Source of the DNA: Chondrosia reniformis
Taxonomy: Eukaryota > Porifera > Demospongiae > Chondrillida > Chondrillidae
DNA: 64,000 bases
Reading direction: 5' to 3'
NCBI GenBank assembly: GCA_947172415.1
Contig: OX359196.1
Span: 1,304,501-1,368,500, forward strand
Below, in pieces: positions 1 through 37,600 of the stretch. Positions within the stretch are counted from its first letter, which is position 1. Each line of letters starts with the position of its first letter. The notes under the pieces were generated by a model. It made no database searches and was not told the DNA's origin. It saw only the letters and a program-made list of their open reading frames with translations. The translations under genes and the position numbers were made by a program.

Positions 1-1089
1 GCCTATGAAAACTGCTTCTTTAATGAAATGAATGAATATTCAAAGCATTTGATTAAGTTTTGTGGTCCATTTTCGCTAATCTTTCTTATTGCCTTAATTA
101 TCTTCAGTGCAAATAAATTGAAACTAAAGGTTTTTAAGTTCTCCTTAATCTCTGAAAGAGCTGTACCCGTTCTTGCAACCTTGATGATAGTAACTTACTA
201 TTTCATTATTGGCAATGTATGTGACTCCTTGCGATCCACTACCATTTACACATTATCTCAAAATGAATCTATAACTGTGACTAAACACTGGCTATATCAA
301 CCTGCTCTAAAGTACTTTGAAATGAAGCATTTAGGTTTGGCAATGTTTGCATTGCTGTTAACTCTCCTGTATGCTCTTCCCCTCACTGTGATCGTACTCT
401 TTGGAGATATTCTGAAAAGAAAATTAATCCGCTTTATATGGTTCAGTCATTTCATTGATGCATTTTATGCACCATATCGCTGGCCATTTGGGTTCTGGTT
501 AGGAGTACGTCTATTGCTTAGAGTAATTTTGGTTATTCCACGAGGAATGCTTTCCGAACACAGATATGCCCTCTTTGTAGCATTCGTAATGATAATATTC
601 TTGGCAGTACAAACATGTATAAAACCATTCCACAGTGGAAGGAGTCATCATGATGAGTCAAAAGATTATGACGAACACCACAAATCCCTTTGGAGAAAAA
701 GGATAAATAAGATTATAAAGTGGTGCACCAACCCTCTCTTTCTTGATGGTCTCCTCCAGTTAAATGCTATTCTTGTCAGTATTGCTATCTCCAGTAGGTT
801 ACCACAACATTTGAACACAGTGGCTTGCGTATTATCTGCGACTTTTGCTGGTATACACATTACCTTAATTTTTGCATACCATGGATACATGTACTTTCCT
901 ATTCCAAAGTGTATCAAAAGAAAATGGAAGAGTTTCAAACAAAAACTTCCAAGATTAAAAACACAAAAAGATAATGATTGCACCAATGAAATTGACTCTG
1001 TGGAGAATATTCCATTTAGGTATTTGGATTTTAATGAAGCTGACACTTCAGAAGAACGAGATATTATAGATCTAGACAGATCCACTTAA
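1..1089 (+). CDS. Paralog A1, C-terminal part of a multipass beta-helix receptor-like protein (5' end outside window)
   Basis: The reading frame is open from base 1 and ends at TAA 1087-1089, giving about 362 residues. They match the last third of A2 and A3, starting at the AYENCFF segment between the second and third hydrophobic segments. Visible parts are: a hydrophobic segment after [19 protein letters not shown]; a long hydrophobic stretch ending in TVIVLFGDIL; the family signature [20 protein letters not shown]; two or three more hydrophobic segments; the HGYMYFPIPKC motif; and an acidic tail with NIPFRYLDFNEAD. The ectodomain, first membrane segment and start codon lie before the window. 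Function is unknown. At the protein level the tail is closer to A3 than to A2. The stop codon is intact, unlike in A3. A start at the internal ATG (28) is not credible because homology continues upstream of it. Confidence 0.9.
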   Translation, partial: AYENCFFNEMNEYSKHLIKFCGPFSLIFLIALIIFSANKLKLKVFKFSLISERAVPVLATLMIVTYYFIIGNVCDSLRSTTIYTLSQNESITVTKHWLYQPALKYFEMKHLGLAMFALLLTLLYALPLTVIVLFGDILKRKLIRFIWFSHFIDAFYAPYRWPFGFWLGVRLLLRVILVIPRGMLSEHRYALFVAFVMIIFLAVQTCIKPFHSGRSHHDESKDYDEHHKSLWRKRINKIIKWCTNPLFLDGLLQLNAILVSIAISSRLPQHLNTVACVLSATFAGIHITLIFAYHGYMYFPIPKCIKRKWKSFKQKLPRLKTQKDNDCTNEIDSVENIPFRYLDFNEADTSEERDIIDLDRST

Positions 1090-4000
1090 TTTGATGGGAG
1101 TCCTCGAGTAATATTTAGAAACTATTTCATGCATGCCAATAGAAATTCAAACACATATACATGTAACATGTATGACATGATTTCGTATAATATGATTTCA
1201 AGCTGTTTTGTATATGTATATTATATTGTAGAAATAATTGATAATTCATTATTATATGTACATAAAATTTAAACTTGAAACAAGACAGTGATATGCATAT
1301 GGTATAGGACTATCTATACTGAAACTTAAGTGACTTAACAGTATGCACATCATGATCACTTGTCATTAAATTAAGGGAATCATGATTGCTTGTATAATCT
1401 AAGTATATAGCTGTACATCGAAACTAAACTAATATGTATTAGTGAATTCGAAGTGATGAAGTATTAAACACATAAGCCTCAAAAATGATTAGAACTGTAA
1501 CATTTTCAGTATTGTATTTTGATAAGTACTTACCGAATTAGGCAAGTCAACTGATTAAGTATTAATTTGAAAAAAAATTATCTTGTAATTGGTTGAAACA
1601 CAGTGCATTGCTAATTAATTTACTAATTGATCCCACATGCTTGACTGTAAGAAATTAGAACTAATATTGATATGTAAAAAGATTGCCAAATTTGGTTTGG
1701 AAGAGTTATAATCACACAACCTTGCTAAGATTTTACAAAATTCACATAACATCACTATTCAAACCAATGTTTAAACATTCAGGTATGCAAATCACTCTAT
1801 AATAATCCAATATAGCTATGTATAAGTGATGTCAATGTTTAGGCAACACTATAAAAGCTAATAGCTACAGGTAGCATGAGTGTGAGACAAGTAGAAGGAA
1901 ATAAAGCAACTTGAATCCTAAATGGAAACGTTCGTATGTTATATTCAACTTCTTGCCTGAACCCTTTTTGATCAGTATACAAACTTACTGATGTAGGCCA
2001 TTGATCATATATATAGGGTATCTCTTCTTCCGCAGATTGCTTACACAAATGCAAAATGTGATCCTGCATGCTCATTCGAAATTGCATAAATAACATACAG
2101 ACAGTGATACCAATAATTTATGAACGAGCTGCCTGTGTAGCTACATATATATACTGCTACAGGCTGAGGTATATAAATAACATCTTTCTCTGCAATGATA
2201 AATAGATAATTCAAAGGTGGATGCTTGACTTAAGTTATGAAAATATATAAATTGAACTCTATGGGGAGCCTGAAAAGTAAGCTGCAGGGTAGACTCATCA
2301 CTGATCCAAGCTTCTCGTTTACTAGTAAAGTAAACTGCACAATAACAGGGAACTTCTGTATAGATAGACTATATGTAATATAGCATGAATATTTGCATAT
2401 CTTTTGAAAGGACCTAAAGATGCTCTAAAAGTCGAAAGGTGATCCTTTCAAAAGATAAGTTCGAAGCAATTAGAAGGAATCTTTACTCTAATATTTGCAT
2501 ATTTTAATTTTGTTATGCTAACAATGTGTTGGACTGCCCTAATGTTATGAGTTATGTAAATATACATTCTACATATACAAGCAATAATTGGGATATACTG
2601 CAAACAATATTAATGTACGAGACTACACATCACTGGGTTATTGCTACTTTCACTGTATAATCAATGTCATGCTTTGGAGTTGTTTAAAGTCTTAATCGAC
2701 TAAAATTGTTCATCCCCATACTATGTGACCGTTTAAGACACCATGTCCATTTTCTGTGGGAGGGGTTGATTGAAACTGCTATTGATTAGATCATAATAAC
2801 CTGAATAGGAGAAAGGGTAAGTTTATTCATAGGAACAATAAAACTGTACAATATTTGTTTTCTAAAGAACTGATACAATTAGACAATGATACAAATTTAT
2901 AGTGAAATCAAATTGCAAGAAATCAAAAACACAAAGTTACTGCTACCCAATAAGCCATTCATTGATTGTCTGCCAATTGGTCCAAAGGATGTGTTGTAAC
3001 TGGTTTAAGGAATGATTCTACAAGTCTTACAAGTATACAGTCTATATAATATATGACTCACTGGTTGCTTTAATTTGGATTAATTTCCATACCTATAAAC
3101 ATACAGTATTAGCTGACAGCTATTACAGTAAAAACCAGTATTATAATGGACATATTAATCTCTGATAAGTTTCATTTTTAGTCTTTTAGAGCATTTGAAG
3201 ATGTAGTTTGGCTTCTAAGAGATGCTGATTGTTTTGACCCTTGGGTTCATCTTTATAGTGACTGATGAACTGAAATGTTTGACATCTTCGGATACTCCAA
3301 TACCAAAGATGAACCATATGCATAAGATAAGTTGGAAGAAATAACTATAATCTATTAATATGATTATATTGTAAACTTACGTACATGTGCTTGGTATATG
3401 ATGAGACTTTAAGATCACTTTTGATATCCTAAAGTCCTCCTATTCCTTTTCATTGTATGTAGTCATGCATATAATTTGCTGATAAAAAAACTACAATTGA
3501 TTTCGACTTGAGGGTACATACATACTTATATATATATATTGGCAGATATACAGTATGTCACCCAAACATCAATTCAATATGTATAGTACATATATGACAC
3601 TATGCAAAGCAGCTGACGCAACTAGTTAATGTCGCATGCACAGGATGTAACACCTTTTAATAACACACCTACGTATATATCTTCCAATATATATATATAT
3701 GTGTATGTAAACAAGGGCACTTTTATAAAGTATTAATTAAGAAGTGTTATATTATCACGAAGTGACATTCTAGGTTGGCTATTAGACATTGTAAAGATAA
3801 TTCACTCGATTCCAACCAAATGATTCACAATAGATCATTACTAACATTTCAGCCACATACTGTGGCCTTCCAAGTATAATATTACCACTGTGTGTTATAT
3901 TGTAGTGTTATAGTGTTATATATATTGCACATTCAGTGTTATATTGCATTATATTACCAGTAGACTTAACAGTATATATATATATGTACATCATGATCAC

Positions 4001-4526
4001 TTGTCATTAAATTAATGGAATCATGATTGCTTGTATAATCTACGTATATAGCTGTACATCGAAACTAAACTAATATGTATTAGTGAATTCGAAGTGATGA
4101 AGTATTAAACACATAAGCCTCAAAAATGAGTAGAACATTCAATTATCACCTTCACTTTGCGTATAAAAAAGGGTGCTTGCCTTGTACACACATCATTAAC
4201 ACTGATAAAGACCCCAGGATTGGGGTCGAAACGTTTGATTCATTGACAAGATCCATTTGTCCAATTCAGCCCAGCTAGTGTGATACCGAAAGATTTGAAA
4301 TCCTATTGTTATGAATGAAATATATACTAATACAGTATGTGAATGCTATAAATGAAGTATACAGTATATACAAAGCATAAAACTGAATCTACATTTTATA
4401 TCAGCATGCATAGTATACGTACGTACATATGTACATATATAATACAGGAACAATTCACTGAACCATTCGATTTATGCCTGGTAAAGAGTAAGCAATTTTC
4501 GTTACTGCCAACCAAGGTAATAACCG
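1090..4526. other. Intergenic region A1-A2, no gene seen
   Basis: AT-rich, without a convincing coding frame. It contains a hairpin-type element at about 2397-2492 (two arms with CTCTAAAAGTCGAAAGG and GATCCTTTCAAAAGATAAG) and a second at about 3160-3345 with GACCCTTGGGTTCATC and CCAAAGATGAACC arms. A CTGATAA ... CGAAACG element lies at 4201-4235, just after a TATAAAA-like stretch near 4161. The TATAAAA could be promoter material for A2 or part of the repeat; the sequence does not decide. Short ORFs at 1839-2096 and 4352-4597 have no family resemblance and are taken as chance. Confidence 0.7.
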
Positions 4527-7500
4527 ATGGAAAAGTACTTCTTCCTCAAGATTATTTTTCTTATTGTCTCCTGCAAATTGCAATTGTCAGATTGTAGAAA
4601 TCACACATTTTGGGTGACGCCTATGACTGGTCAAAACTGTCACAACAGAACACCATGTAACACAACTGCTGAATACTACCAACAGAATAACAGCATCTTC
4701 TCAACATCAAACAGTACGTGGATATTTCTTAACGGAACACACGAATTCAAGACTAATATGGGTGTAATTAGTTCAACTGAACATGTGACCTTTAAGGGTG
4801 AGTACCCAGACTGTTGTCTTGTACACATAAGAACTATACGTGTTTGGGTTTACCTCAACCATGGCCAGTTTATTGGGTTTGAAAATTTACATTTTGCAGC
4901 TGACAGTGATACATGGACCAGGTTTATTGTAGTTAATAATACTAATGGTTTGACATTCTCCAATGTGCACTTGCAAGGAGGAAACATCCATTTAATTTTA
5001 ATAGATAGCTACATTGAAATTTGGAATTGTTCATTCAGTTACACTTATATGAGACTAGAATCCATGGCATCAGTGGTATCTGAAATAATTGATGAAAGTA
5101 TGAGAAATATAATAATGCAAATTGTTGAATGTTTCTTCCGAAATTCAACTATGGAAATATTAGGTGATGGCCATTGGGACTGGCGGACTGATGGGTATGG
5201 AGCATTTTATTTTCAACCCGGAAGAAAGATCCTCACAGCAGCTGTAGCAATCCACAACTGTACTTTTGTTGGAGACAATCACCAATCGACTGCCTTAACA
5301 ATAAGGTCTTTATCTATTCCAATCTTGCTGTCTGAAACTAAGATTGTGAATTATTCCACTGCTGCCATTATGTGTGAGGATGCTATGATACACTTCAAAG
5401 GAAAAAATTGGATTGACAATAATGGAAACAGAGCTAGAGAGATATTACCCTATGGCAACTTTTATGATTCGGAAATTTTTGGATCAATATTCTTGAAAAC
5501 ATCTGTTATTCTGATTCAACAGAATTCAAAGCTACAAATAAGCAACAATTATAATTGGGTAGGGTACGATTGGTTTAATATGTTTCCTTACCAGGGTACC
5601 TGCCCATTATTCCTGGTCAATAGCAGCCTAGAATTGTTAAATATATATGAAGTGGAAAATGAATTCAATGGATCCATTGAATTTACTAACAATACAATAT
5701 TCAGAGGAGGGGGGAATCAGATATTCAATGGGTACTTATCAAAATGCTTGCCTGAAACATCAAACAATACAGCAGCTATTCCAAATATAACTACATTGAA
5801 AGATATCCTACATTTATCATCATGGACTTCAAGAGATATCTCCTCACCACCTCATGGATTATGTCTCTGCAATGATAGTGATTTGGGAAATAGACAACTC
5901 TGGGATTGCAACGAGTACACCAATTTTACTATATATGGAGGGTTAGATTTCACCATATATATTACTCTAATTGGAGATTTAAACCTTGCAGTAAATGATT
6001 TTGTTGATCTATCATATAAAATAGGAATTAATTCCTATGACAGAAGTAATCAATTATATGTACATGGAGAATGTTATCCAATGCAATTTGATGGGCAGAT
6101 CTATAGGGGGAGTGAAGCAAGCTTTAGAAATGGAAAGAAGCATTTGAAAACAGTGCAAGTCAACTTTTATGAATGCCCCCTTGGTTTCAAACAACATCTA
6201 TTAAATACAAGCCTCTCACCTACTTGTTTATGTGATGATTTTCTAAACGATCATGGATTTAGCTGTACTATCAGGCACAGTGGATTTAAGTTCCAGCAAA
6301 GCAGAGATGACTACTGGATCCATTATGATTTGGATACTCTGACATTCAGTGATCACTGTCCATCTTTCTTTTGCAACAATCAGCTCAAGGAGAAAGGAAT
6401 AGTTTTCAAAAGTAGTAATCTACGTATATCTCCTGCACAACAGTGTAATGGTGATAATAAACGCTTGGGTATACTCTGTAGCGAGTGCCCACCAGGACAC
6501 AGCTCCACTTTTGGTGGTCAAAGATGTAGGTGTTGCAAAGATCTTTGGTATCTTATGCTTTTGTTGGTTGGTGGCTTTGATCTGCTAATGTTATTTCTAT
6601 TCCTTCTCTTTAATTTTACAATTGTTTACCAAACCACCATCGGCATTGCTCTTTATGCTAATGTTTTGTACATGTATGATGACTTTTTCTTAAAACATTC
6701 CAGACACTTTGCTTACAAATTCATTGCAACTCTTAATTTAAGATTTGCCTATGAAAACTGCTTCTTTAATGAAATGAATGAATATTCAAAGCATTTGATT
6801 AAGTTTTGTGGTCCATTTTCGCTAATCTTTCTTATTGCCTTAATTATCTTCAGTGCAAATAAATTGAAACTAAAGGTTTTTAAGTTCTCCTTAATCTCTG
6901 AAAGAGCTGTACCCGTTCTTGCAACCTTGATGATAGTAACTTACTATTTCATTATTGGCAATGTATGTGACTCCTTGCGATCCACTACCATTTACACATT
7001 ATCTCAAAATGAATCTATAACTGTGACTAAACACTGGCTATATCAACCTGCTCTAAAGTACTTTGAAATGAAGCATTTAGGTTTGGCAATGTTTGCATTG
7101 CTGTTAACTCTCCTGTATGCTTTTCCCCTCACTGTGACAGTACTCTTTGGAGATATTCTGAAAAGAAAATTAATCCGCTTTATATGGTTCAGTCATTTCA
7201 TTGATGCATTTTATGCACCATATCGCTGGCCATTTGGGTTCTGGTTAGGAGTACGCCTATTGCTTAGAGTAATTTTGGTTATTCCACGAGGAATGCTTTC
7301 CGAACACAGATATGCCCTCTTTGTAGCATTCGTAATGATAATATTCTTGGCAGTACAAACATACATAAAACCATTCCACAGTGGAAGGAGCCATCATGAT
7401 GAGTCAAAAGATTATGACGAACACCACAAATCCCTTTGGAGAAAAAGAATGAATAAGATTATTAAGTGGTGCACCAACCCTCTCTTTCTTGATGGTCTCC

Positions 7501-7835
7501 TCCAGTTAAATGCTATTCTTGTCAGTATTGCTATCTCCAGTAGGTTATCACAACATTTGAACACAGTAGCTTGCGTATTATCTACAACTTTTGCTGGTAT
7601 ACACATTACCTTAATTTTTGCATACCATGGATACATGTTCTTTCCTATTCCAAAGTGTATCAAAAGAAAATGGAAGAGTTTCAAACAAAAACTTCCAAAA
7701 TTAAAAGCACAAAAAGGTAATGATTGCTCCAATGAAATTGACTCTGTGGAGAATATTCCATTTAGGTATTTGAATTTTAATGAAGCTGACACTTCAGAAG
7801 AACGAGATATTATAGATCTAGACAGATCCACTTAA
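4527..7835 (+). CDS. Paralog A2, intronless multipass receptor-like glycoprotein, 1102 aa
   Basis: One uninterrupted frame from ATG 4527 to TAA. Residues 1-24 are a signal peptide (basic start, then FFLKIIFLIVSC). Residues 25 to about 660 are an extracellular region rich in N-x-S/T sites with repeated short strand-like segments, suggestive of a right-handed beta helix. It opens with the family motif PCNTTAEYY followed by FSTSNSTWIFLNGTH. A DISSPPHGLCLC/LWDCNE block sits near residue 440. A cysteine module with LGILCSECPPGHSSTFGG lies just before the membrane. Hydrophobic segments lie near residues 673-699, 702-720, 757-779, 793-812, 849-875, 899-920, 928-947, 989-1006 and 1013-1040. [20 protein letters not shown] lies near residues 890-903. 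The tail carries NIPFRYLNFNEAD and is acidic. Function unknown; a surface receptor or channel-like protein is inference. It is nearly identical to A3 over the first ~750 residues but differs at many sites in the last third. Confidence 0.93.
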   Translation: MEKYFFLKIIFLIVSCKLQLSDCRNHTFWVTPMTGQNCHNRTPCNTTAEYYQQNNSIFSTSNSTWIFLNGTHEFKTNMGVISSTEHVTFKGEYPDCCLVHIRTIRVWVYLNHGQFIGFENLHFAADSDTWTRFIVVNNTNGLTFSNVHLQGGNIHLILIDSYIEIWNCSFSYTYMRLESMASVVSEIIDESMRNIIMQIVECFFRNSTMEILGDGHWDWRTDGYGAFYFQPGRKILTAAVAIHNCTFVGDNHQSTALTIRSLSIPILLSETKIVNYSTAAIMCEDAMIHFKGKNWIDNNGNRAREILPYGNFYDSEIFGSIFLKTSVILIQQNSKLQISNNYNWVGYDWFNMFPYQGTCPLFLVNSSLELLNIYEVENEFNGSIEFTNNTIFRGGGNQIFNGYLSKCLPETSNNTAAIPNITTLKDILHLSSWTSRDISSPPHGLCLCNDSDLGNRQLWDCNEYTNFTIYGGLDFTIYITLIGDLNLAVNDFVDLSYKIGINSYDRSNQLYVHGECYPMQFDGQIYRGSEASFRNGKKHLKTVQVNFYECPLGFKQHLLNTSLSPTCLCDDFLNDHGFSCTIRHSGFKFQQSRDDYWIHYDLDTLTFSDHCPSFFCNNQLKEKGIVFKSSNLRISPAQQCNGDNKRLGILCSECPPGHSSTFGGQRCRCCKDLWYLMLLLVGGFDLLMLFLFLLFNFTIVYQTTIGIALYANVLYMYDDFFLKHSRHFAYKFIATLNLRFAYENCFFNEMNEYSKHLIKFCGPFSLIFLIALIIFSANKLKLKVFKFSLISERAVPVLATLMIVTYYFIIGNVCDSLRSTTIYTLSQNESITVTKHWLYQPALKYFEMKHLGLAMFALLLTLLYAFPLTVTVLFGDILKRKLIRFIWFSHFIDAFYAPYRWPFGFWLGVRLLLRVILVIPRGMLSEHRYALFVAFVMIIFLAVQTYIKPFHSGRSHHDESKDYDEHHKSLWRKRMNKIIKWCTNPLFLDGLLQLNAILVSIAISSRLSQHLNTVACVLSTTFAGIHITLIFAYHGYMFFPIPKCIKRKWKSFKQKLPKLKAQKGNDCSNEIDSVENIPFRYLNFNEADTSEERDIIDLDRST

Positions 7836-10800
7836 TTTGACGGGAGTCCTCGAGTAATATTTAGATACTATTTCATGCCTCCCAATAGAAATTCAAACAC
7901 ATATACATGTAACATGTATAACATGATTTCGTATAATATGATTTCAAGCTGTTTTGTATATGTATATTATATTGTAGAAATAATTGATAATTCATTATTA
8001 TATATACGTACATAAAATTTAAGCTTGAAACAAGACAGTGATATGCATATGGTATAGGACTATCTATACTGAAACTTAAGTGACTTAACAGTATGCACAT
8101 CATGATCACTTGTCATTAAATTAATGGAATCATGATTGCTTGTATAATCTAAGTATATAGCTGTACATCGAAACTAAACTAATATGTATTAGTGAATTCG
8201 AAGTGATGAAGTATTAAACACATAAGCCTCAAAAATGATTAGAACTGTAACATTTTCAGTATTGTATTTTGATAAGTACTTACCGAATTAGGCAAGTCAA
8301 CGGATTAAGTATTAATTTGAAAAAAATTTATCTTGTAATTGGTTGAAACACAGTGCATTGCTAATTAATTTACTAATTGATCCCACATGCTTGACTGTAA
8401 GAAATTAGAACTAATATTGATATGCAAAAAGATTGCCAAATTTGGTTTGGAAGAGTTATATATAATCACACAACCTTGCCAAGATTTTACAAAATTCACA
8501 TAACATCACTATTCAAACCAATGTTTAAACATGCAGGCATGCAAATCACTCTATAATAATCCAATATAGCTATGTATAAGTGATGTCAATGTTTAGGCAA
8601 CACTAAAAGCTAATAGCTACAGGTAGTACGAATGTGAGACAAGTAGAAGGAAATAAAGCAACTTGAATCTTAAATGGAAACGTTCGTATGTTATATTCAA
8701 CTTCTTGCCTGAACCCTTTTTAATCAGTATACAAACTTACTGATGTAGGCCATTGATCATATATATATAGGGTATCTCTTCTTCTGCAGATTGCTTACAC
8801 AAATGCAAAATGTGATGCCGCATGCTCATTCGAAATTGCATAAATAACATACAGACAGTGATACCAATAATTTATGAACGAGCTGCCTATATAGCTGCAT
8901 ATACTGCTACAGGCTGAGGTATATAAATAACATCTTTCTCTGCAATGATAAATAGATAATTCAAAGGTGGATGCTTGACTTACGTTATAAAAATATATAA
9001 ATTGAACTCTATGGGGAGCCTGAAAAGTAAGCTGCAGGGGTAGACTCATCACTGATCCAAGCTTCTTGTTTACTAGTAAAGTAAACTGCACAATAACAGG
9101 GAACTTCTGTATAGATAGACTATATGTAATATAGCATGAATATTTGCATATCTTTTGAAAGGACCTAAAGACGCTCTAAAAGTCGAAAGGTGATCCTTTC
9201 AAAAGATAAGTTCGAAGCAATTAGAAGGAATCTTTACTCTAATATTTGCATATTTTAATTTTGTTATGCTAACAATGTGTTGGACTGCCCTAATGTTATG
9301 AGTTATGTAAATATACATTCTACATATACAAGCAATAATTGGGATATACTGCAAACAATATTAATGTACGAGACTACACATCACTGGGGTATTGCTACTT
9401 TCACTGTATAATCAATGTCATGCTTTGGAGTTGTTTAAAGTCTTAATCGACTAAAATTGTTCATCCCCATACTATGTGACCGTTTAAGACACCATGTCCA
9501 TTTTCTGTGGGAGGGGTTGATTGAAACTGCTATTGATTAGATCATAATAACCTGAATAGGAGAAAGGGTAAGTTTATTCATAGGAACAATAAAACTGTAC
9601 AATATTTGTTTTATAAAGAACTGATACAATTAGACAATGATACAAATTTATAGTGAAATCAAATTGCAAGAAATCAAAAACACAAAGTTACTGTTACCCA
9701 ATAAGCCATTCATTGATTGTCTGCCAATTGGTCCAAAGGATGTGTTGTAACTGGTTTAAGGAATGATTCTACAAGTCTTACAAGTATACAGTCTATATAA
9801 TATATGACTCACTGGTTGCTTTAATTTGGATTAATTTCCATACCTATAAACATACAGTATTAGCTGACAGCTATTACAGTAAAAACCAGTATTATAATGG
9901 ACATATTAATCTCTGATAAGTTTCATTTTTAGTCTTTTAGAGCATTTGAAGATGTAGTTTGGCTTCTAAGAGATGCTGATTGTTTTGACCCTTGGGTTCA
10001 TCTTTATAGTGACTGATGAACTGAAATGTTTGACATCTTCGGATACTCCAATACCAAAGATGAACCATATGCATAAGATAAGTTGGAAGAAATAACTATA
10101 ATCTATTAATATGATTATATTGTAAACTTACGTACATGTGCTTGGTATATGATGAGACTTTAAGATCACTTTTGATATCCTAAAGTCCTCCTATTCCTTT
10201 TCATTGTATGTAGTCATGCATATAATTTGCTGATAAAAAAACTACAATTGATTTCGACTTGAGGGTACATACATACTTATATATATATATTGGCAGATAT
10301 ACAGTATGTCACCCAAACATCAATTCAATATGTATAGTACATATATGACACTATGCAAAGCAGCTGACGCAACTAGTTAATGTCGCATGCACAGGATGTA
10401 ACACCTTTTAATAACACACCTACGTATATATCTTCCAATATATATATATATGTGTATGTAAACAAGGGCACTTTTATATAGTATTAATTAAGAAGTGTTA
10501 TATTATCACGAAGTGACATTCTAGGTTGGCTATTAGACATTGTAAAGATAATTCACTCGATTCCAACCAAATGATTCACAATAGATCATTACTAACATTT
10601 CAGCCACATACTGTGGCCTTCCAAGTATAATATTACCACTGTGTGTTATATTGTAGTGTTATAGTGTTATATATATTGCACATTCAGTGTTATATTGCAT
10701 TATATTACCAGTAGACTTAAGAGTATATATATATATGTACATCATGATCACTTGTCATTAAATTAATGGAATCATGATTGCTTGTATAATCTACGTATAT

Positions 10801-11278
10801 AGCTGTACATCGAAACTAAACTAATATGTATTAGTGAATTCGAAGTGATGAAGTATTAAACACATAAGCCTCAAAAATGAGTAGAACATTCAATTATCAC
10901 CTTCACTTTGCGTATAAAAAAGGGTGCTTGCCTTGTACACACATCATTTACCACTGATAAAGACCCCAGGATTGGGGTCGAAACGTTTGATTCATTGACA
11001 AGATCCATTTGTCCAATTCAGCCCGGCTAGTGTGATACCGAAAGATTTGAAATCCTATTGTTATGAATTAAATATATACTAATACAGTATGTGAATGCTA
11101 TAAATGTAGTATACAGTATATACAAAGCATAAAACTGAATCTACATTTTATATCAGCATGCATAGTATACGTACGTACATATGTACATATATAATACAGG
11201 AACAATTCACTGAACCATTCGATTTATGCCTGGTAAAGAGTAAGCAATTTTCGTTACTGCCAACCAAGGTAATAACCG
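7836..11278. other. Intergenic region A2-A3, no gene seen
   Basis: This is the second copy of the 3.4 kb intergenic part of the tandem repeat, aligning end to end with 1090-4526 with only scattered changes. The same hairpin elements recur at about 9146-9240 and 9910-10095, and the CTGATAA ... CGAAACG element at about 10953-10988. Short ORFs (7873-8109, 8795-9091, 11158-11349) are not preserved as frames in all copies and are rejected as genes. Confidence 0.7.
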
Positions 11279-14200
11279 ATGGAAAAGTGCTTCTTCCTCA
11301 AGATTATTTTTCTTATTGTCTCCTGCAAATTGCAATTGTCAGATTGTAGAAATCACACATTTTGGGTGACGCCTATGACTGGTCAAAACTGTCACAACAG
11401 AACACCATGTAACACAACTGCTGAATACTACCAACAGAATAACAGCATCTTCTCAACATCAAACAGTACGTGGATATTTCTTAACGGAACACACGAATTC
11501 AAGACTAATATGGGCGTAATTAGTTCAACTGAACATGTGACCTTTAAGGGTGAGTACCCAGACTGTTGTCTTGTACACATAAGAACTATACGTGTTTGGG
11601 TTTACCTCAACCATGGCCAGTTTATTGGGTTTGAAAATTTACATTTTGCAGCTGACAGTGATACATGGACCAGGTTTATTGTAGTTAATAATACTAATGG
11701 TTTGACATTCTCCAATGTGCACTTGCAAGGAGGAAACATCCATTTAATTTTAATAGATAGCTACATTGAAATTTGGAATTGTTCATTCAGTTACACTTAT
11801 ATGAGACTAGAATCCATGGCATCAGTGGTATCTGAAATAATTGATGAAAGTATGAGAAATATAATAATGCAAATTGTTGAATGTTTCTTCCGAAATTCAA
11901 CTATGGAAATATTAGGTGATGGCCATTGGGACTGGCGGACTGATGGGTATGGAGCATTTTATTTTCAACCCGGAAGAAAGATCCTCACAGCAGCTGTAGC
12001 AATCCACAACTGTACTTTTGTTGGAGACAATCACCAATCGACTGCCTTAACAATAAGGTCTTTATCTATTCCAATCTTGCTGTCTGAAACTAAGATTGTG
12101 AATTATTCCACTGCTGCCATTATGTGTGAGGATGCTATGATACACTTCAAAGGAAAAAATTGGATTGACAATAATGGAAACAGAGCTAGAGAGATATTAC
12201 CCTATGGCAACTTTTATGATTCGGAAATTTTTGGATCAATATTCTTGAAAACATCTGTTATTCTGATTCAACAGAATTCAAAGCTACAAATAAGCAACAA
12301 TTATAATTGGGTAGGGTACGATTGGTTTAATATGTTTCCTTACCAGGGTACCTGCCCATTATTCCTGGTCAATAGCAGCCTAGAATTGTTAAATATATAT
12401 GAAGTGGAAAATGAATTCAATGGATCCATTGAATTTACTAACAATACAATATTCAGAGGAGGGGGGAATCAGATATTCAATGGGTACTTATCAAAATGCT
12501 TGCCTGAAACATCAAACAATACAGCAGCTATTCCAAATATAACTACATTGAAAGATATCCTACATTTACCATCATGGACTTCAAGAGATATCTCCTCACC
12601 ACCTCATGGATTATGTCTCTGCAATGATAGTGATTTGGGAAATAGACAACTCTGGGATTGCAACGAGTACACCAATTTTACTATATATGGAGGGTTAGAT
12701 TTCACCATATATATTACTCTAATTGGAGATTTAAACCTTGCAGTAAATGATTTTGTTGATCTATCATATAAAATAGGAATTAATTCCTATGAGAGAAGTA
12801 ATCAATTATATGTACATGGAGAATGTTATCCAATGCAATTTGATGGGCAGATCTATAGGGGGAGTGAAGCAAGCTTTAGAAATGGAAAGAAGCATTTGAA
12901 AACAGTGCAAGTCAACTTTTATGAATGCCCCCTTGGTTTCAAACAACATCTATTAAATACAAGCCTCTCACCAACTTGTTTATGTGATGATTTTCTAAAC
13001 GATCATGGATTTAGCTGTACTATCAGGCACAGTGGATTTAAGTTCCAGCAAAGCAGAGATGACTACTGGATCCATTATGATTTGGATACTCTGACATTCA
13101 GTGATCACTGTCCCTCTTTCTTTTGCAACAATCAGCTCAAGGAGAAAGGAATAGTTTTCAAAAGTAGTAATCTACGTATATCTCCTGCACAACAGTGTAA
13201 TGGCGATAATAAACGCTTGGGTATACTCTGTAGCGAGTGCCCACCAGGACACAGCTCCACTTTTGGTGGTCAAAGATGTAGGTGTTGCAAAGATCTTTGG
13301 TATCTTATGCTTTTGTTGGTTGGTGGCTTTGATCTGTTAATGTTATTTCTATTCCTTCTCTTTAATTTTACAATTGTTTACCAAACCACCATCGGCATTG
13401 CTCTTTATGCTAATGTTTTGTACATGTATGATGACTTTTTCTTAAAACATTCCAGACACTTTGCTTACAAATTCATTGCAACTCTTAATTTAAGATTTGC
13501 CTATGAAAACTGCTTCTTTAATGAAATGAATGAATATTCAAAGCATTTGATTAAGTTTTGTAGTCCATTTTCGCTAATCTTTCTTATTGCCTTAATTATC
13601 TTCAGTGCAAATAAATTGAAACTAAAGGTTTTTAAGTTCTCCTTAATCTCTGAAAGAGCTGTACCCGTTCTTGCAACCTTGATGATAGTAACTTACTATT
13701 TCATTATTGGCAATGTATGTGACTCCTTGCGATCCACTACCATTTACACATTATCTCAAAATGAATCTATAACTGTGACTAAACACTGGCTATATCAACC
13801 TGCTCTAAAGTACTTTGAAATGAAGCATTTAGGTTTGGCAATGTTTGCATTGCTGTTAACTCTCCTGTATGCTCTTCCCCTCACTGTGATCGTACTCTTT
13901 GGAGATATTTTGAAAAGAAAATTAATCCACTTTATATGGTTCAGTCATTTCATTGATGCATTTTATGCACCATATCGCTGGCCATTTGGGTTCTGGTTAG
14001 GAGTACGCCTATTGCTTAGAATAATTTTGGTTATTCCACGAGGAATGCTTTCCGAACACAGATATGCCCTCTTTGTAGCATTCGTAATGATAATATTCTT
14101 GGCAGTACAAACATGCATAAAACCATTCCACAGTGGAAGGAGTCATCATGATGAGTCAAAAGATTATGACGAACACCACAAATCCCTTTGGAGAAAAAGG

Positions 14201-21454: not shown

Positions 21455-21493
<39 letters not shown>

Positions 21494-21495
21494 TA

Positions 21496-21543
<48 letters not shown>
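21452..21543. repeat. (ATT)n microsatellite
   Basis: About 90 bases of ATT repeats with one interruption (TTTATATT). It is a second trinucleotide run downstream of paralog B, separate from that at 21183. Confidence 0.95.
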
Positions 21544-22147: not shown

Positions 22148-22309
22148 CATAAGATTCTTTTATTTCTGATGTGTGGTGATATTGAAAGTAACCCTGGGAC
22201 TACCTATGTTTGTGTAAGTTGTGAAAAAACCATACTTAGAAAGCATAAGACTATTTCCTGTGACGGTTGTTCATTTTTGGTTTCATATCTGATGCGTAGG
22301 TATAACTGA
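22148..22309 (+). mobile_element. Remnant of a non-LTR retrotransposon (LINE) ORF with 2A-like motif
   Basis: A 53-codon frame reads LLFLMCGDIESNPGT, then two Cys pairs spaced like a PHD/zinc-finger module (YVCVSCEKT and ISCDGCSF), and ends in TGA. Non-LTR retrotransposons of several invertebrates are known to carry a hydrophobic stretch plus a D-x-E-x-NPGP (2A-like) motif near the ORF start, followed by Cys-rich fingers. Here the final Pro is Thr and no endonuclease or reverse transcriptase follows, so this is a decayed fragment. The frame has a stop immediately upstream (TGA 22145). Confidence 0.6.
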
Positions 22310-23568: not shown

Positions 23569-26500
23569 ATGAGTGCTTTGACAGTTAAAGTTATCATTTT
23601 GCTAAGTACAACAGCTAGTTGCTCGGCTGAGCATCTCATTCACTATGTCACACCTAATGATACAACGCCCTGTAATACTGGCTACAGGTGTGACACAATC
23701 ATGGGATATTACGATAAGTTGGGCAGCCAATCAAATGTAACTTGGATATTTTTAGAAGGAACCCACAACATTTTTATCCCCGGAGATTCAACAATTTCAA
23801 ACATTACCATGACTTCAGTTTCTAATGTAGTATGGAAGGGAGAACATAGAAATGGAAGCTTAATTAACTTCAAAAATATTAACTTTATAATAAGGAATAG
23901 CAGCAACATCTCTTTCCAAGACTTAGGTATTAGAGGTGTTAATTTGAATGTTTTATTCTTCTTTTTTAGAACACTTGAAGGTAAGCTCAATTTTTCTATT
24001 GAAAATGTATCCAACCTGGGAATGGTAAATGTTACACTTGAAGGTTTCCAAATCAAATTTGATAATACCTTCGGCCACTGTTGGATTCAAACTTGCTCAC
24101 TGAAGGATAATGACATATTAATTGTTGGAACAGAGAAATCAGAAGGACGAAGGTTGATAAGCATAACAAATACAAGCCTTGTGAATGTATCTACAACCAT
24201 ACAGATTGATCAAGATAATGAATACCTCCTTCCAAGGATTCAAGTAGTAGAATGTAGCTACTTATATTCTCCAATACATATTGAAAAAATAACCAAACTG
24301 CAATCTCCTACAATGATGTGCAAGGGAAACAGGGACAAATTTGTGCAATTTAGTTCCAGTACTTTTAGAGGAAAATATATAGCTTTTGGAATAAAAGAGG
24401 TCTGTTCTTCAGTCCTCATTTCAAACTGCACCTTTAGTGGGACTAACAGAGGAATCGCTTTGAAAGTAACGAACGCTACCATCCACCTGAGAGGTTGCAA
24501 TTATATCATTAATAATAAGAATGTCAATTACCAAGGTATTATGACTATTAACAGTTCACTTGTTTTTCTTGAAAAAGGTGCAGTTTTAACCATTTCCAAC
24601 AATGAAGCACTTCTTAGTGGCGGCCTAGTGTACTTCCCTCCAAAGAGAGAAAACAGCATTCCATGCATTAGAAGAGGAATAACAAGTATTGAATGCCAGC
24701 AATTATGCTTCATTCAGCTAGTTGACAGTGAAGGTACCTTTTTAAATGAATCCGAAATCACACGCTTCAATGGATCCATTCAACTATTTAACAATAACAG
24801 ATTACAAGGACTCAATGGTAACCAGATATTTGCTGGAAATTTATTAAACTGTACACTTCTTTTGAATAATGCTAATATTACAGCAGACAGCAAGCTACTT
24901 CAGAAACTCATTCATTTACCATCTTGGAATTCCACAGATATAGCCACCTCACCTCAGGCCATTTGCTTGTGTATACCAGATTCCTATGACACATCTATTC
25001 TCTATAATAAGACTTTTTGGGACTGCAGCAGTTATACCAACATTACTATATATCCTGGAAATGATCTTAAACTGCATGTTACAATCATGGGACAATTCGA
25101 CAGTAGTTTGTCTAAACTACAGGTTGCCACTCGAAACGAATCAATCATTCGGTTGGATGTAACCACTCAGTGCACTCCACTGCTGATTGAGGCTAATAGA
25201 TTTGACCAAATAGGAAACATTATCGTACTCATCCAAAGTGATGAAAATGATGCACCACAGATAAAGCATACGCTAAAACTGGCAACAGATTGTCCGAATG
25301 GATTTAGCCTCAAACCCGATAGAAGAGGATTTCTGATATGCAAAGGCTGCAGCAATTTCCTAGCAAAAAATAAATTTGAATGCAATTTCAGATTCCAGCA
25401 TCCTCTTTACAAACAGGTTGAAAATAAATGGATGGGACTACACAATAAGACACTCATTTTGGCCGATTATTGCCCCTTATTTTACTGCACTGAATTTCTT
25501 AGAACCAACGGTGTCTATCAAAGTGACCTTAACACAAACAAACAATGTAACCCAGAGAACAAGCGTCAAGGCTTCCTTTGTAGTGAGTGTCCCGAAGGTC
25601 ACAGTTCAACATTTGGAGGATTTCAATGTAGAAAATGTCAAACACTATGGCTTCTGCTTTTGATCATTTATACATTAGCTGGTCCAGCACTTTTAGCCTT
25701 TCTGTTTCTATTTAACTTTACTATAGTACAAGGAACAATCAATGGAATAATTATCTATGCCAATGTTATGTATCTTTATGATGACTTCTTACAAGAAAAT
25801 GCAAGAGGCATATTTTATGCAATAATCTCATTTCTTAACTTTGGAAGTGGAAGAAATATCTGCTTCTATGATGGAATGGATGAATTTTCGAATGCCATAC
25901 TTCAATACGCATTTCCAATGTATCTAATATTCTTGGGAATTCTCATAATACTTGGTGCACAAGTTCTAAAACTCAAACTCTTTAGAGTTCAATTCATCAT
26001 TAAGAGGTGTGTTCCAGTATTGGCTACTGTTATGATACTGACATACATAAATTTTGTGGAAGTCATTTGGATAACTCTGAGATTTACTTCAGTCCATTAT
26101 CTTAGACAGCAGGCCAACAGCTCTGAATTTGAAATAATGCCTGTAACTAAAAAAGTTTGGCTTTATCAACCTATTCTAGGGTATCTTCAAGGAAAGCATC
26201 TCTTTTTGGGTCTGATTGCTGTCATCATATCTGTCTTTTACATATTACCTCTAACTATAGTTGTATTATTTGGAGACATTCTGAGGCGAAGATGCATCCG
26301 TAAAATGTGGTTCAGTCACTTTATTGATGTGTTTCAAGGAGCTTACCGGAGACCATTTGGATTTTGGCTAGGATTGAGGTTAATCCTGCGAATTGGTTTG
26401 GTCTCCATTCAAAGTCTGCTAAAATCCCAAGTCTTATTTGCTTATATAACATTGCACATAGTTTTAGCGTTACTGTGCTTAGAAAACCTTTTAAAACCAT

Positions 26501-26985
26501 TTCGCAATGATATTTCAACTCTTAGAAGATCTTACATGCTCAAATTCTCAAAGGAAAGTTTGACATTGAAAGAAGAATTAAAAATATGTTTTCAACAAAT
26601 AATCCACCCTCTGGTACTAGATAACATTTCACTGTTAAATGTTATATGCTTTAGTATAGTCATTATAAAGCAACCAGACAGAATATACAAAGTGTTGGCT
26701 TGTACAATATCAGTGATTGCTATTGTGTTATTAATAATATTTGTTGTCGTTTACCATGGATACCTTTATTTTCCAATTCCCAAATCAGTCAAGATGAAAT
26801 GTAAAAAGTCACACATACATCCACCACATCAAAGACCATCAAGAGAAGAATTGAAAGATACTGCAAATAATGAAAAGGATGATTTTGCAATTGATGATGT
26901 GTTTCCATTTAGGGACATTGAGTATCTGGAAGTTAATCCTTCTAAGGAGAGTGATAGTTCAGAGGACGAGATGTATTTCACTTAA
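23569..26985 (+). CDS. Paralog C, intronless multipass receptor-like glycoprotein, 1138 aa
   Basis: One open frame to TAA 26983-26985. I start at ATG 23569 (MSALTVKVIILLSTTASCSA, a good signal peptide); an upstream in-frame TTG at 23560 is not needed. The ectodomain opens with TPCNTGYRCDTIMGYY and SNVTWIFLEGTHNI, followed by beta-helix-like NCTF strands and N-x-S/T sites. A block DIATSPQAICLC/FWDCSS comes next. The cysteine module is [20 protein letters not shown]. The first hydrophobic segment starts near residue 694; the core contains WFSHFIDVFQGAYRRPFGFW and [11 protein letters not shown]. The tail holds VFPFRDIEY and ends in a Ser/Glu/Asp run. It lies tail-to-tail with the ITPR gene about 0.9 kb away. 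Parts of the membrane half are almost identical to B in DNA. Function unknown. Confidence 0.93.
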   Translation: MSALTVKVIILLSTTASCSAEHLIHYVTPNDTTPCNTGYRCDTIMGYYDKLGSQSNVTWIFLEGTHNIFIPGDSTISNITMTSVSNVVWKGEHRNGSLINFKNINFIIRNSSNISFQDLGIRGVNLNVLFFFFRTLEGKLNFSIENVSNLGMVNVTLEGFQIKFDNTFGHCWIQTCSLKDNDILIVGTEKSEGRRLISITNTSLVNVSTTIQIDQDNEYLLPRIQVVECSYLYSPIHIEKITKLQSPTMMCKGNRDKFVQFSSSTFRGKYIAFGIKEVCSSVLISNCTFSGTNRGIALKVTNATIHLRGCNYIINNKNVNYQGIMTINSSLVFLEKGAVLTISNNEALLSGGLVYFPPKRENSIPCIRRGITSIECQQLCFIQLVDSEGTFLNESEITRFNGSIQLFNNNRLQGLNGNQIFAGNLLNCTLLLNNANITADSKLLQKLIHLPSWNSTDIATSPQAICLCIPDSYDTSILYNKTFWDCSSYTNITIYPGNDLKLHVTIMGQFDSSLSKLQVATRNESIIRLDVTTQCTPLLIEANRFDQIGNIIVLIQSDENDAPQIKHTLKLATDCPNGFSLKPDRRGFLICKGCSNFLAKNKFECNFRFQHPLYKQVENKWMGLHNKTLILADYCPLFYCTEFLRTNGVYQSDLNTNKQCNPENKRQGFLCSECPEGHSSTFGGFQCRKCQTLWLLLLIIYTLAGPALLAFLFLFNFTIVQGTINGIIIYANVMYLYDDFLQENARGIFYAIISFLNFGSGRNICFYDGMDEFSNAILQYAFPMYLIFLGILIILGAQVLKLKLFRVQFIIKRCVPVLATVMILTYINFVEVIWITLRFTSVHYLRQQANSSEFEIMPVTKKVWLYQPILGYLQGKHLFLGLIAVIISVFYILPLTIVVLFGDILRRRCIRKMWFSHFIDVFQGAYRRPFGFWLGLRLILRIGLVSIQSLLKSQVLFAYITLHIVLALLCLENLLKPFRNDISTLRRSYMLKFSKESLTLKEELKICFQQIIHPLVLDNISLLNVICFSIVIIKQPDRIYKVLACTISVIAIVLLIIFVVVYHGYLYFPIPKSVKMKCKKSHIHPPHQRPSREELKDTANNEKDDFAIDDVFPFRDIEYLEVNPSKESDSSEDEMYFT

Positions 26986-27882: not shown

Positions 27883-28630
27883 TTATATACACAACATGCC
27901 ATAATAGATGATGTGAATATCAAAATCCTTGAAATGCTCATTATGGTTGCTTGTAAGATCTAGTACATACGTATCCATAATTACTTTATGTTGCATATCC
28001 TGCAAGGTAGAACTCAGGGTTTTAACAAGTGCATTAGTATCCGTTAACTGTTTGTGAAGAAGGGCCATCTCATTCTGGTCAGATTCAACTTCATCTGTTT
28101 TTAATGACATTGCCTGCATCCTTGGAAACCATTCTACATCTCCAGCCTGTAATCATATGTACGTATATTATTCATATTATGAACAACTACATTAAATGTA
28201 CAAAAACACATACAGGCACACATACGTATGTACATAAGTAGGAATGTACAGTGAAGCATGCTTATTAAGACTAGACATTTGGTGTCATTGCATACCAAAA
28301 TGTACATACACATACGTAGCTTATAGCCACACTGCCAGTTACTAGTAAACAACAACAATAATAACAACGACCTGGATTAGTCTTTAATTACCCTTTTTAA
28401 CCATTTTTACAGTATGTATTGTTAATTAATATAAGCAAAGGAATGACTGGTACGTAATTATAATCTTACTTTTATTTTATTATAAACATAACTCTCTGGA
28501 CCAGTGAACTCTGTTGGGTCTTTGACTTTTAAAAGGACTATAAACTTGAGATAGTCCCAAACGTTGTGTTCCTTCCTTGTGTGCTCTTGGAAAGTGATGG
28601 CTCTGTTTTCAAAGGCAGATCTCTGAAGAC
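27883..28630 (-). CDS. ITPR: ITPR last two exons: linker domain and C-terminal helix
   Basis: Exons 28470-28630 ([43 protein letters not shown]) and 27883-28146 ([20 protein letters not shown], a coiled-coil-like stretch [13 protein letters not shown], then a tail ending at TAA). With the CFIC at the end of the 28901 exon, HTRKEHN completes the Cys-Cys-His-His linker of the family. The last ~30 residues (from about [10 protein letters not shown] on) do not resemble the tail of known receptors. Either they are lineage-specific or a GT at about 27982 is used as a donor to a further exon that I could not find. Confidence 0.88.
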
Positions 28631-31600: not shown

Positions 31601-34600
31601 ATCCATAGGTATACTTATATACTGTATGCAAAATGGAAGAATGAATATACGTATGAACTATGTATCTATGGCAATCTTTTTGAAAGGATCATCTTTTGAC
31701 TTTTAGATACAGTTTTGTTATCAGACGTTTCAACCCCAAGGGTCTTCTTCAGTGACTGATGTTGGCCTACAGGTTGCTCTAAAAGTCAAAAAATGAACCT
31801 TTTAAATGATAAGTTTGACACAGTTAGAAAAAAATCCTTATTCTGTAATACACCAATTCAAAGTGGCTATTGATGTCTTTGAAACTGACATTAAATATGA
31901 AAGTTACTGAATAAAAATAAATTGTTGAACTCAATGACTATAAAAAAAGGTTTATACAATACCTTTAATAGTAGTTGCTAGTTTCTATGTTAAAAATGGA
32001 AGTCTATTGTAAAAACAATTTAGAGTATAAAGATATAAGCATATGCCAACCATATTCCAGGAAATCTTATCTTTAAATAAGTAGATAGTACACATACACT
32101 ATAAATACTTTTATATAAATACAATACAATACATATAAATACACTTATCAGTGTTAGGAGTTTAGTGCTCGTCAGTAGAAAGAAAATGCTACTTTTTACT
32201 TTACACTTTGCATTCAGCTTCTCCCTTTTCATAATGTCAACTTACGTAATAACTGAATCTAGTGGAGACAGTATCTTTAGTGTGATCCCTGCAACCAGAC
32301 AAGACTGGCACAGCAGAGTAGCATGTAACACAAGTGATAAAGACGCGTGTACTGTAGATGAATACTATGAAATGAATAACAACATATTCTCAACACCAAA
32401 CAGTACGTGGATCTTTCAGAAAGGTAGCCACAAGAGTTCAAACGGAATCAACATCATTAACACAAGTAATGTTTTTCTTGGGTGTCCATCGGAGAAGTGT
32501 AAAATCAGAACTGACAAAGATATAAAACTTGAAAATTCCAAAAATATTACTCTGCAAGGTTTTTACTTTATAGATGTTTCGACCAGATTTAGCAGGTTCC
32601 CAAACATTTCAATTACTCGTGTGCAGGAACTAAATCTCACGCATTTAGTTATTACGGGTTTCATCTTTACAATATCCCATCCGATTGGTTGCTATGAGAT
32701 TGAAAACTGTACATTTGATAACTGTGACCTAAATGTAAACTTTGATTCACAAGACCTGCAAGCAGAGTTTGCAAGTGAAATAGTGAGCATCAAGTTTTGC
32801 AAAATTAAGTTCCAAGGGAGTAGTTTTCAAGAGTACTTTAGCGATACCTCCGGCTATAGTGAAGCACAATCAACTGGTTCTATAACCACTATAGAGGAGT
32901 CAGATTTCATAAATAGTTATATTCTGATAACAAATGATACCAAATTGTACAACATTAATAAATATGACTTCCAAAGACCAGCCATCTTGTTCATCAACTG
33001 CCGTTTTGAAATAATAGATGTTTCTCATACTAAAGAGCTGATGGTATTTCATAATGCTTTAGGTGTTGTTTTATCAAACTGCACAGTAAATGGAAGCCTT
33101 TCCGGTTCAATAAGACTTTTTAATAGTAACCTTCTCACCCGCGGCAATATTATCATCAAGGGAAATGATAACACATGGACAACTGGTTTGGGTTATATTA
33201 ACCTCTTCAATTCTAGAATCTTTTTACAAAATACTTCTACATTGAAAATCATTGAAAATAAAAGTTTTCTTGGTAGCATATTATTTTTACCAATTAATTT
33301 ATTCTCCTATCATGAGAACATTTACTATGACTATACACAGTGTGCCGCTGGTAGGATGGAACAGTGCGATAGGAGCTGTTTTTTTCAGGCCATTGATCAA
33401 AATGGAGTGCTACTGAGGGAAAGGGATATTCCCTTTTTTAATGGAACTATTATCATGGACAACAATACAGTAGAGTATGGAGGCAACCAAATATATAATG
33501 GACAGCTAGAGGACTGCACTCTATACACTCAGGAGGGTCACATGACTACCAACAAGACCATACTAGAGCAGTTCATTCATTTGCCCTCGTTTACCCCTAA
33601 AGATGTGTCCTCTCTGCCATACTACATATGCTTATGCGAGGAGGCTAGGGTAGGCAAAAGAGATAAGCAGAATTGTGGGAATGTAAGCAATCTTGATCTA
33701 TATCAGGGAGAAACATTGCACATTATTGTAGCTTTGGTGGGCGATTTTGATCAAAACATTGGAGACACAAAAATATCCGTTGGAATAGGTGAAGATTCTG
33801 AACGAAAACCAGTTGAACAACACTGCACAGAAGTTTATTCAACTGGTCCTGTTTCCATATCACCTGAAAAAATGATTATTAACTTAAAATATACCGTAAT
33901 TGAATTGAGTATAGGTGAGATGGATCTATCCCTCACTCATGTAGTAAATGTTAACATACTGCCTTGTCCAATTGGATTTAAGCCCAAAGATAACAGAAAC
34001 GCTAGTTCAACTTGTATCTGCAATGATATTCTAAATGAATTTGACTTCCAATGTAATATTCAACAAAATGAAGTTATCTTTAAACACGCTAATCCTAAAA
34101 TTTACACATACTGGCTTGGAATAGAAGGAAATCACACACTAAAATTTGGCAAATTTTGTCCACCATATTTTTGTAATAACATCTTACAAGATTCAAATGT
34201 ATCTTACAACAGTCTTCAAAACACTCCAAATAAACAGTGTAACAGTAACACAAAAAGAGAAGGCTTCCTCTGCAGTGAATGTCCAGAAGGATATAGCTCT
34301 GTTCTAGGTGGATACGAATGCAAACAGTGCCAAGAGAACTGGCACTTCCTAATCGTTATTTACACACTATCTGGACCAGTTCTAATAATGTTTCTTTTCT
34401 TATTTAATTTAACAATCGTACAAGGATCCATTAACAGCTTCATCTTCTATACAAACATTGTGTACTTTTATGATGATTTCCTCCAGGAACACACAGTCCA
34501 GCCATTTTACAATATTTATTCCATCTCAAATATTGGATCCGGAAAGGGACTATGCTTCTTTATAGGTATGAATGAATTTCATAAGGTGTGGCTGCAGTTT

Positions 34601-37600
34601 ATATACCCACTTTACCTCTTACTACTTGTGGTTTTCATTATCATTGGAGCAAATAAGTTTAATTTGAGAATATTTCAGGTGGATTTTATCACACAGAGAG
34701 CAGTTCCTGTACTGGCCACATTAATGATATTGACCTATACAAACTTTATAACATGCATATGGAAGGCATTTCGTTTTACTAGAGTGGTAGAGATTGATGG
34801 ACAAGGAAATAGCCTTCATGAGCATTACTTGTGGTTATTACAACCTACCCTGCCATATTTACAAGGAACACATTTGATTTTAGGAATGTTTGCCCTTGCT
34901 ATAACTCTCATTTATATTCTTCCACTCACTCTTGTCACACTGTTTGGAGAGATCATCAGAAGAAGATGCATTCGAAGCATGTGGTTTAGTCACTTCCTGG
35001 ACACCTTTCATGGATGCTATCGCTGGCCATTTGGGTTCTGGCTGGGAGTGAGGTTGTTTATAAGGGTATTACTGATCATCCCTCGAAACCTTTGGCCTCA
35101 AAATATTTTTGCAATTTTCACTCTTTATTTTATAACTTTTTTTTTTCTGATTCAAATAATACTTAAGCCTTTTCAAACTGAAATAAAATGGCTGCAAAGT
35201 CAACAAGGTCAAAAACAAACATCACTAAATGGTAAACAAATTACTAGCAAGTGGAAAAGTAAAATAAAGGCACTTTTGAAATGGCTGATAACACCACTGG
35301 TTTTTGATAGCATCAGTTTATTAAACATTCTTTTTTTGAGCTCGATTGTTGCAATTAATCCAAATATATCTTTTAGTAAATTTGCCTCCTGTTTCTCTAT
35401 TTCAATATTCTTCCTGCAGGGTATCTACGGGTCAGTGCATCATGCCTACTTGTACTTTCCCATTCCTAAATGGATCAAATGGAAATGGGAACAACTGAAG
35501 CAAAGACTCCCAGGAAGGCAGACAGAAGATGAGAATCTTATGGGCGAAGGAGATGATTCCTTGTTGAATTTTCAGTATAGAGAAATGCAAAATGCTGAGT
35601 TTGACCTATCCACCAACCATGAAGAAGTTACAACTAATGACATAGAGGCTGTGTCGCAAGAGGTTCAACTACAGGAAGACCCGTCTCTGCCGCTCCTCGA
35701 AACACAGATATGAATGTTTTCATATGCAGAAACAAAACATTTTGTGAACTATGTACTATGTATAATCTCAAACTTTCGAACAAATATGTTAGTTTCTTTA
35801 GACAATGTTAATCACCATGTTTATCAATAATCATATACATATACCACAAATACACATGTTACATTTTAGTATTGTTACACTATATTTCCATTTCCACAAA
35901 TCAATGAAGACAGGTGATACAACTTAGAAGGTTCCTTGGGAAATAAAAAGTTGCCCTCATAAACCAGAGGAGATATTATGTAATAACTACCATACACCAC
36001 TTGTATATATATGTATATTAGTGCACTTGCTTTGGTCGAAGATGCCAAAACCTTCCTTTAATTTTTTAAAATACTAAAATAATTTATACATTTTCAGGAG
36101 AAACAAAACCTGTAGATAACAAATATATAGAGACTGAAACATCATATATTTACATGTGTACGTATGTGTACGTATAACAAGAATACGTACACATACGGCA
36201 TAAGAAACTATTTAAATGCAAAGGAAATAACAAGATTTCCAATAGAATTAATATAAATATAAACAGTCACAACATTGAAAAGAGCAACTATACACTGACA
36301 AGGCAGTGCCACCTGTAAACAAACTTGTAATTTCAGTACTATACACAATTTGATTACCGTTACAATATACAGTAAATACATATACTATAATCCTAGTAAC
36401 TACTTACATTAGCTACAGTGTCAGTTACTATACAAAGCAATCATTTTGTACCTTCACTGCATAGACTTATCTTCACAATGTTTGATTTGCCTCAAAATTT
36501 TAAAGTAGCCTTAATTGTAAGTCTCTCATGCTTTTAGTTTTTAGAACAACTTTAGAGTATATAAGAGAAGCAGATTGACAGAGCAATGTAAATAGATATC
36601 TCATCAACCATACGATGTCATGTATAGGAATATGTACACACTGTCAGAGGACGTACATATGTGTACACACTGTCAGAGGACGTACATATGTGTACACACT
36701 GTCAGAGGATGTACCATACGATGTCATGTATAGGAATATGTACACACTGTCAGAGGACGTACATATGTGTACACACTGTCAGAGGACGTACATATGTGTA
36801 CACACTGTCAGAGGACGTACATATGTGTACACACTGTCAGAGGATGTACATATGTGTACACACTGTCAGAGGATGTACATATGTGTACACACTGTCAGAG
36901 GATGCACACTTACCTAAGTAAACTGAGCTTTTTGCAAACGGATAGAAGAGAATGACAAGTAGATTAATGACAACGGCTAAAAAGAATGACATAGTAGACC
37001 ACATGCTGGCATTACGAGGAATCCATCTTAATGGTATTCCTAGATAGGGAAGAAAATGGATAAGACAATTGATAGGATTGGATAGGACAAGTGATAGGAT
37101 TGGATAGGACAAGTGATAGGATTGGATAGGACAAGTGATAGGATTGGATAGGACAAGTGATAGGATTGGATAGGACAAGTGATAGGATTGGATAGCACAA
37201 GTTATAGGATTGGATAGGACAAGTGATAGGATTGGATAGGACAAGTGATAGGACAAGCAAAGATAACTATCAATAATTGAGCTTCTATTCAATGTACGTA
37301 GATGATATGTCTAATAAAAAGAATATTTTAAAAATAAAATGATTCAACAGTTAAGAAATACTATGAGAATAAACTCGGTGTGAAAAATAATTTAACAAAT
37401 GATTGCAAACAAAAAATAAAGTCACAGCAACATACGTAACATACAACTAGTCAGGTAAGGTGATTTGACATGAGTCCATTTAGCGATTCCTCGGATCTAA
37501 AATGTATTAGGCCTATAGGCAACATTTAATTATACATACATTCAATCTTCAATAATCTTTGAAAATAACAGTAACAATATGAACTTCTATTCTATGACTT

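Follow-up and report, generated by a model that had tools for sequence, protein, structure and literature searches.

The 64,000-nucleotide window analysed here (C8:1304501-1368500, on one of the 15 contigs that make up the 117.4-Mb genome of the sponge Chondrosia reniformis) holds six receptor-like genes, designated A1, A2, A3, B, C and D, in which a predicted beta-helix ectodomain is joined to a multipass membrane half. It is proposed that they encode fast-diversifying cell-surface receptors for glycans or particles, possibly with a TRP-like nine-pass transducer, and we judge the chances of this reading to be about even. A broader and more tentative proposal, which we hold at somewhat less than an even chance, is that these genes represent an unnamed nine-pass superfamily, comprising roughly a hundred genes in a single animal genome and apart from the G-protein-coupled receptors (GPCRs) and the canonical TRP channels, in which a conserved transducer is paired with a glycan-binding beta-helix that evolves rapidly and varies in length. 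This would constitute a variable-/constant-region recognition repertoire of an early-branching animal.

Architecture of the encoded proteins

The six open reading frames, all on the + strand, lie where the initial annotation had placed them; five are complete and A1 is open at its 5´ end. A1 (1..1089) corresponds to the 3´ part, the last 362 amino acids, and its frame breaks just before the window begins, where the genome reads a shift at about codon 211 of A2. A2 (4527..7835) is complete with 1102 amino acids. A3 (11279..14770; 1163 amino acids) has lost the stop present in A1 and A2 and gains 61 extra residues. These are followed by B (17755..21081; 1108 amino acids), C (23569..26985; 1138 amino acids) and D (32186..35713; 1175 amino acids), the last being the protein whose structure was modelled. 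The earlier description of all six coding frames as intact thus fails for A1, with its broken frame; A3 lacks the A1/A2 stop. The probability of stop-free frames of such length arising by chance is 10^-34.6 to 10^-37.1 for the five complete genes, and the next-longest stop-free frame in positions 1-36000, besides the six, comprises 151 amino acids. The intronless state alone is not surprising, since Amphimedon queenslandica lists 13,201 single-exon transcripts versus 43,615 genes in the figures cited from PMC10282587.

The window genes have in common a hydrophobic, signal-like start, an N-glycosylated ectodomain, an LCSECP module and a multipass membrane half, with 19-23 sequons ahead of the module and 2-3 behind it. 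Among the motifs previously attributed to the whole set, WFSH...PFGFW is present in all six genes and the GxLCSECP module in the five complete ones. The others are less uniform: YFPIPK reads FFPIPK in A2, and A2, A3 and B match the N-terminal PCxT...FSTSNxTWIF motif exactly, with a looser form in C and D. The acidic tail reported for every member did not stand, as the tail is net acidic in C and D only among the five genes tested.

In D, the predicted model and structural alignment delimit a beta-helix at 32270..33565 (+ strand, about residues 29-460), whose stacked parallel rungs identify it as right-handed and parallel, as the initial annotation had anticipated for the fold. The Pfam beta-helix (Beta_helix) cut-off is passed by B alone among the six window genes. 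A cysteine-rich part that includes the LCSECP module follows at 33965..34333 (+ strand, about residues 594-716). The length upstream of the module ranges from 14 to 1646 amino acids (median 807) in the 220 of 263 homologues matching the module expression, some of the shortest lengths being those of fragments.

By structure the ectodomain resembles carbohydrate-active enzymes, tailspikes and the adhesin PfbA, with lyases, epimerases and glycosidases as its best fold matches, as would be expected if the genes encoded membrane-anchored polysaccharide-processing enzymes. Across 40 tier-1 rows, however, no column of D residues 28-500 holds D, E, K or R at 80% or more, and the lone H column (position 440, 80%) is Q in D, so that catalysis by the beta-helix appears unlikely. 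The enzymatic explanation, deprived of a conserved catalytic charged set, is considered very improbable.

The membrane half of D (34340..35455, + strand, residues 719-1090) is predicted to cross the membrane nine times, with the N-terminus outside and the C-terminus inside, according to its helices and loop charges; the second crossing is weakly hydrophobic. The predicted model reaches a predicted template-modelling score (pTM) of 0.87, and the multipass character assigned earlier is borne out. The statement that the proteins fit no named family was likewise upheld: none of the four window membrane halves drew a Pfam match at E up to 10, and four proteins compared with NCBIfam gave no match. 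Comparison with GPCR families, as suggested in the initial annotation, produced no GPCR Pfam match to the membrane half, NCD3G reaching E 0.54 against the module, and GPCR and rhodopsin chains gave background scores only in the structure search.

Structurally, the membrane half is matched most clearly by a Megaviridae protein that carries the annotation TRP ion channel (template-modelling score 0.48-0.49, probability 1.00). The comparison with TRP-like families that had been suggested therefore yields a weak structural lead, but without support at the sequence level. PF06011 is a TRP-like family of the fungal Flc/Pkd2 type. Neither the four window membrane halves nor 15 relatives brought up this model at an E-value limit of 10, in a setting where HMMER filters drop most matches above 0.1; the search of the sponge's own genome also gave no match, yet 14 controls were likewise without one, making it uninformative. 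On structural modelling, the membrane half is possibly TRP-like.

At the C-terminus, the motif [LFVI]x[DE]PL[LMI] occurs in 56 of 220 homologues versus 0.32 in shuffled sequences (239 homologues minus 19 without the W.G..L..R motif). It is present in L001, L003 and L004, which belong to the same chromosomal group as the window genes. The enrichment suggests a cytosolic partner.

Family size, duplication and divergence

With the membrane half of D as query, 76 matches were found in the genome at E up to 1e-5, and a second relative used as query gave 72. They were merged by hand into 67 places on ten contigs, built from 67 of the 76 rows of the D search plus one of the second search (68 merged to 67); eight split fragments and the stop-ridden C5:5390390 were omitted by hand, and an opposite-strand pair on C10 was counted once. 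Of the 67 places, 51 are in groups under 100 kb (random mean 7.25, maximum 18). Twelve places at C8:1.29-1.52 Mb form the group to which the six window genes belong. Another, more distant set occurs on C14 and C11, exemplified by L005, with Chlam_PMP repeats and a membrane-profile match of 1.8e-12. Together with the shorter frames described below, this set adds 38 hand-picked places (10 of at least 1000 amino acids, 27 of 400-750 and one shorter), which brings the sum to 105. All place counts are lower bounds; 11 genome stretches were read, the search match being the basis for most places. The six-gene cluster described initially is consequently correct as to its genes and location, but six is far from the size of the family.

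Frames of about 420-720 amino acids form further clusters. Five were fetched (L007-L011, at C9 5.797-5.80 Mb, C5 5.526, 8.131 and 8.412 Mb, and C2 8.44 Mb; 469-591 amino acids from the first ATG), and their membrane-profile matches range from 4e-20 to 2e-14, with no Pfam beta-helix. They share the motifs FNINLA..GH and LDPxFDVxQG, and show no Pfam family of note. Fragments of the receptor-like family with internal stops were also seen at C8:1867117-1868014 and C8:1945367-1958846.

The broken frame of A1, the lost stop of A3 and the 9 of 67 places that are interrupted or short could indicate decaying, little-expressed duplicates without present function. Against this, 58 of the 67 places are stop-free over at least 700 amino acids (53 over at least 900), and all 23 strongly conserved ectodomain columns are kept in A2, B, C and D, the genes taken into this test, A1 and A3 standing outside it. 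Among the 27 strongly conserved membrane columns, A2 misses four, D two, and B and C none. Decay of the family is the least credible of the explanations considered, and extremely improbable.

A1, A2 and A3 are carried by a 6.75-kb unit repeated in tandem (1..17413, + strand; 97.7% identity over 10.7 kb), in agreement with the fast local change in copy number proposed earlier. A 300-bp element occurs twice per unit, at both ends of the A-gene spacer (1253-1552, 3894-4193, 8003-8302, 10645-10944 and 14751-15050), the two copies being about 64% identical; it may have served as a substrate for the tandem duplication. A 513-bp tract spanning the module through the fourth membrane segment is common to B and C (19723..20235 in B and 25558..26070 in C, both + strand; 84% identity). 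Fourfold sites are identical at 40 of 48 positions inside the tract, compared with 23 of 54 before and 19 of 41 after it, and the edges are sharp; judging from this sequence pattern, the tract is a product of gene conversion or unequal exchange. In the membrane-half tree, where contigs were separated by printed size alone and the window's own copies were left out, 61 of the 99 labelled homologues have their nearest neighbour on their own contig; permutation gave a mean of 3.4 and a maximum of 14.

Three protein searches returned 146, 255 and 68 relatives. The short membrane query accounts for the 68, the weakest at E 1e-70, out of 7,998 candidates scored, and the matches carry no taxon. One match bears a gene name, Em0022g81a, which we take to be an Ephydatia muelleri identifier. 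The relative P0001 begins at the position of a GTG codon in the window, which suggests prokaryote-style, single-frame gene calling in the searched set; the relatives found are thus single-frame, and intron-bearing ones would be missed. A literature search, with most subscription papers out of reach, found no paper describing this receptor-like family by title or abstract.

Downstream of the cluster, at about 37000-64000 on the - strand, lies an IP3 receptor-like gene with many small exons. Five of its seven pieces match MIR, RIH, RIH_assoc or Ins145_P3_rec in Pfam, and one piece matches solved IP3 receptors. This region contains long minisatellites, such as 25 bp x 24.9 at 48585-49206, 20 bp x 19.5 at 59072-59462 and 15 bp x 23.9 at 53514-53868.

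A putative recognition mechanism

We infer a recognition role for these proteins, as a binding ectodomain set on a conserved nine-pass transducer fits a recognition receptor best. The glycosylated beta-helix would bind glycans or particles of microbial, dietary or self origin, a proposal that follows from the polysaccharide binding of its solved look-alikes. The disulphide-rich stalk would relay the binding event to the membrane half, acting as a signal-transducing and possibly TRP-like, cation-conducting module. The cytosolic tail, whose last residues in some members read [LFVI]x[DE]PL[LMI], might bind a cytosolic partner such as a trafficking adaptor. Tandem duplication combined with divergence of the ectodomain would create new specificities, and gene conversion could homogenise the membrane half. 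Mean column conservation along D is 0.23-0.38 at residues 1-650 and 0.40-0.60 at residues 701-1000.

Several observations weigh against this reading. Conservation falls to 0.20-0.35 at D residues 1001-1100, the last membrane stretch. Between A2 and A3, the ratio of nonsynonymous to synonymous substitution rates (dN/dS) is 0.25 in the ectodomain and 0.44 in the membrane half, both below 1, and positive selection was not seen in this A2-A3 comparison in either half. The TRP-like lead consists of two predicted viral proteins, one of them unnamed, with a best viral E of 6.8e-3 and none at 0.001; the alignment of the membrane half with the viral protein has a root-mean-square deviation of 12, and the search of the PDB with the membrane half gave nothing below E 0.1. 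The C-terminal [LFVI]x[DE]PL[LMI] motif is missing from A, B and C and degenerate in D, and the canonical [DE]xxxL[LI] is hardly enriched (26 of 220 versus 18 in shuffles). Finally, the five fetched membrane-half-only frames suggest that the beta-helix may be dispensable for the core function.

The existence of such relatives, the membrane half being the conserved part and the structural match to a TRP-annotated viral protein would all agree with a TRP-like nine-pass channel or transporter core, whose beta-helix serves as a structural or mechanical cap (in mechanosensing or a surface coat) rather than as a specific ligand binder. We regard this alternative as rather unlikely. Clustered, conversion-prone and near-identical tandem copies with a long N-glycosylated ectodomain could instead be allorecognition or self-marker molecules, polymorphic surface proteins that tell self from non-self between individuals; the distribution of the places over ten chromosomes, not one locus, and the A2-A3 dN/dS below 1 speak against this possibility, which seems distinctly unlikely.

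Significance and comparison with known systems

The receptor reading touches on how filter-feeding early animals distinguish food bacteria, symbionts and self at the cell surface, for which a clustered, receptor-like beta-helix family some hundred genes strong offers concrete candidates. The study in PMC13372038 left undetermined whether recognition at capture runs through specific receptors. Domain-based surveys would tend to miss such a family because its membrane half has no Pfam match and its genes are single-frame. According to a table note in PMC10282587, one Ephydatia annotation version left out most single-exon genes.

Among known systems, the GPCR families of sponges and choanoflagellates are likewise large, diversified multipass sets, some with long ectodomains, as described in the relevant passages of PMC4302439 and PMC12716839. 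In contrast, the present family has nine predicted crossings instead of seven and no GPCR Pfam match, and those passages make no mention of a beta-helix ectodomain. A possible likeness to the TRP-like PF06011 lies in the structural match to a viral protein annotated as TRP, and the difference in the absence of a match to the Pfam model. DUF7630 (PF24633), a 45-amino-acid module of unknown function, covers the LCSECP module region only; its cut-off of 27 bits is passed by the relatives P0012, P0035, P0241 and L004, while the five complete window genes score 15.3-20.5 and the A1 part gives no match. The fold of the ectodomain is shared with right-handed parallel beta-helix proteins such as RbmB, AlgE4, PfbA and the phage tailspikes (Pfam Beta_helix and Chlam_PMP). 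Unlike these, and in particular unlike the polysaccharide lyases and epimerases with their conserved catalytic charged residues, the window family carries no conserved catalytic charged set and has its beta-helix fused to a putative nine-pass membrane half.
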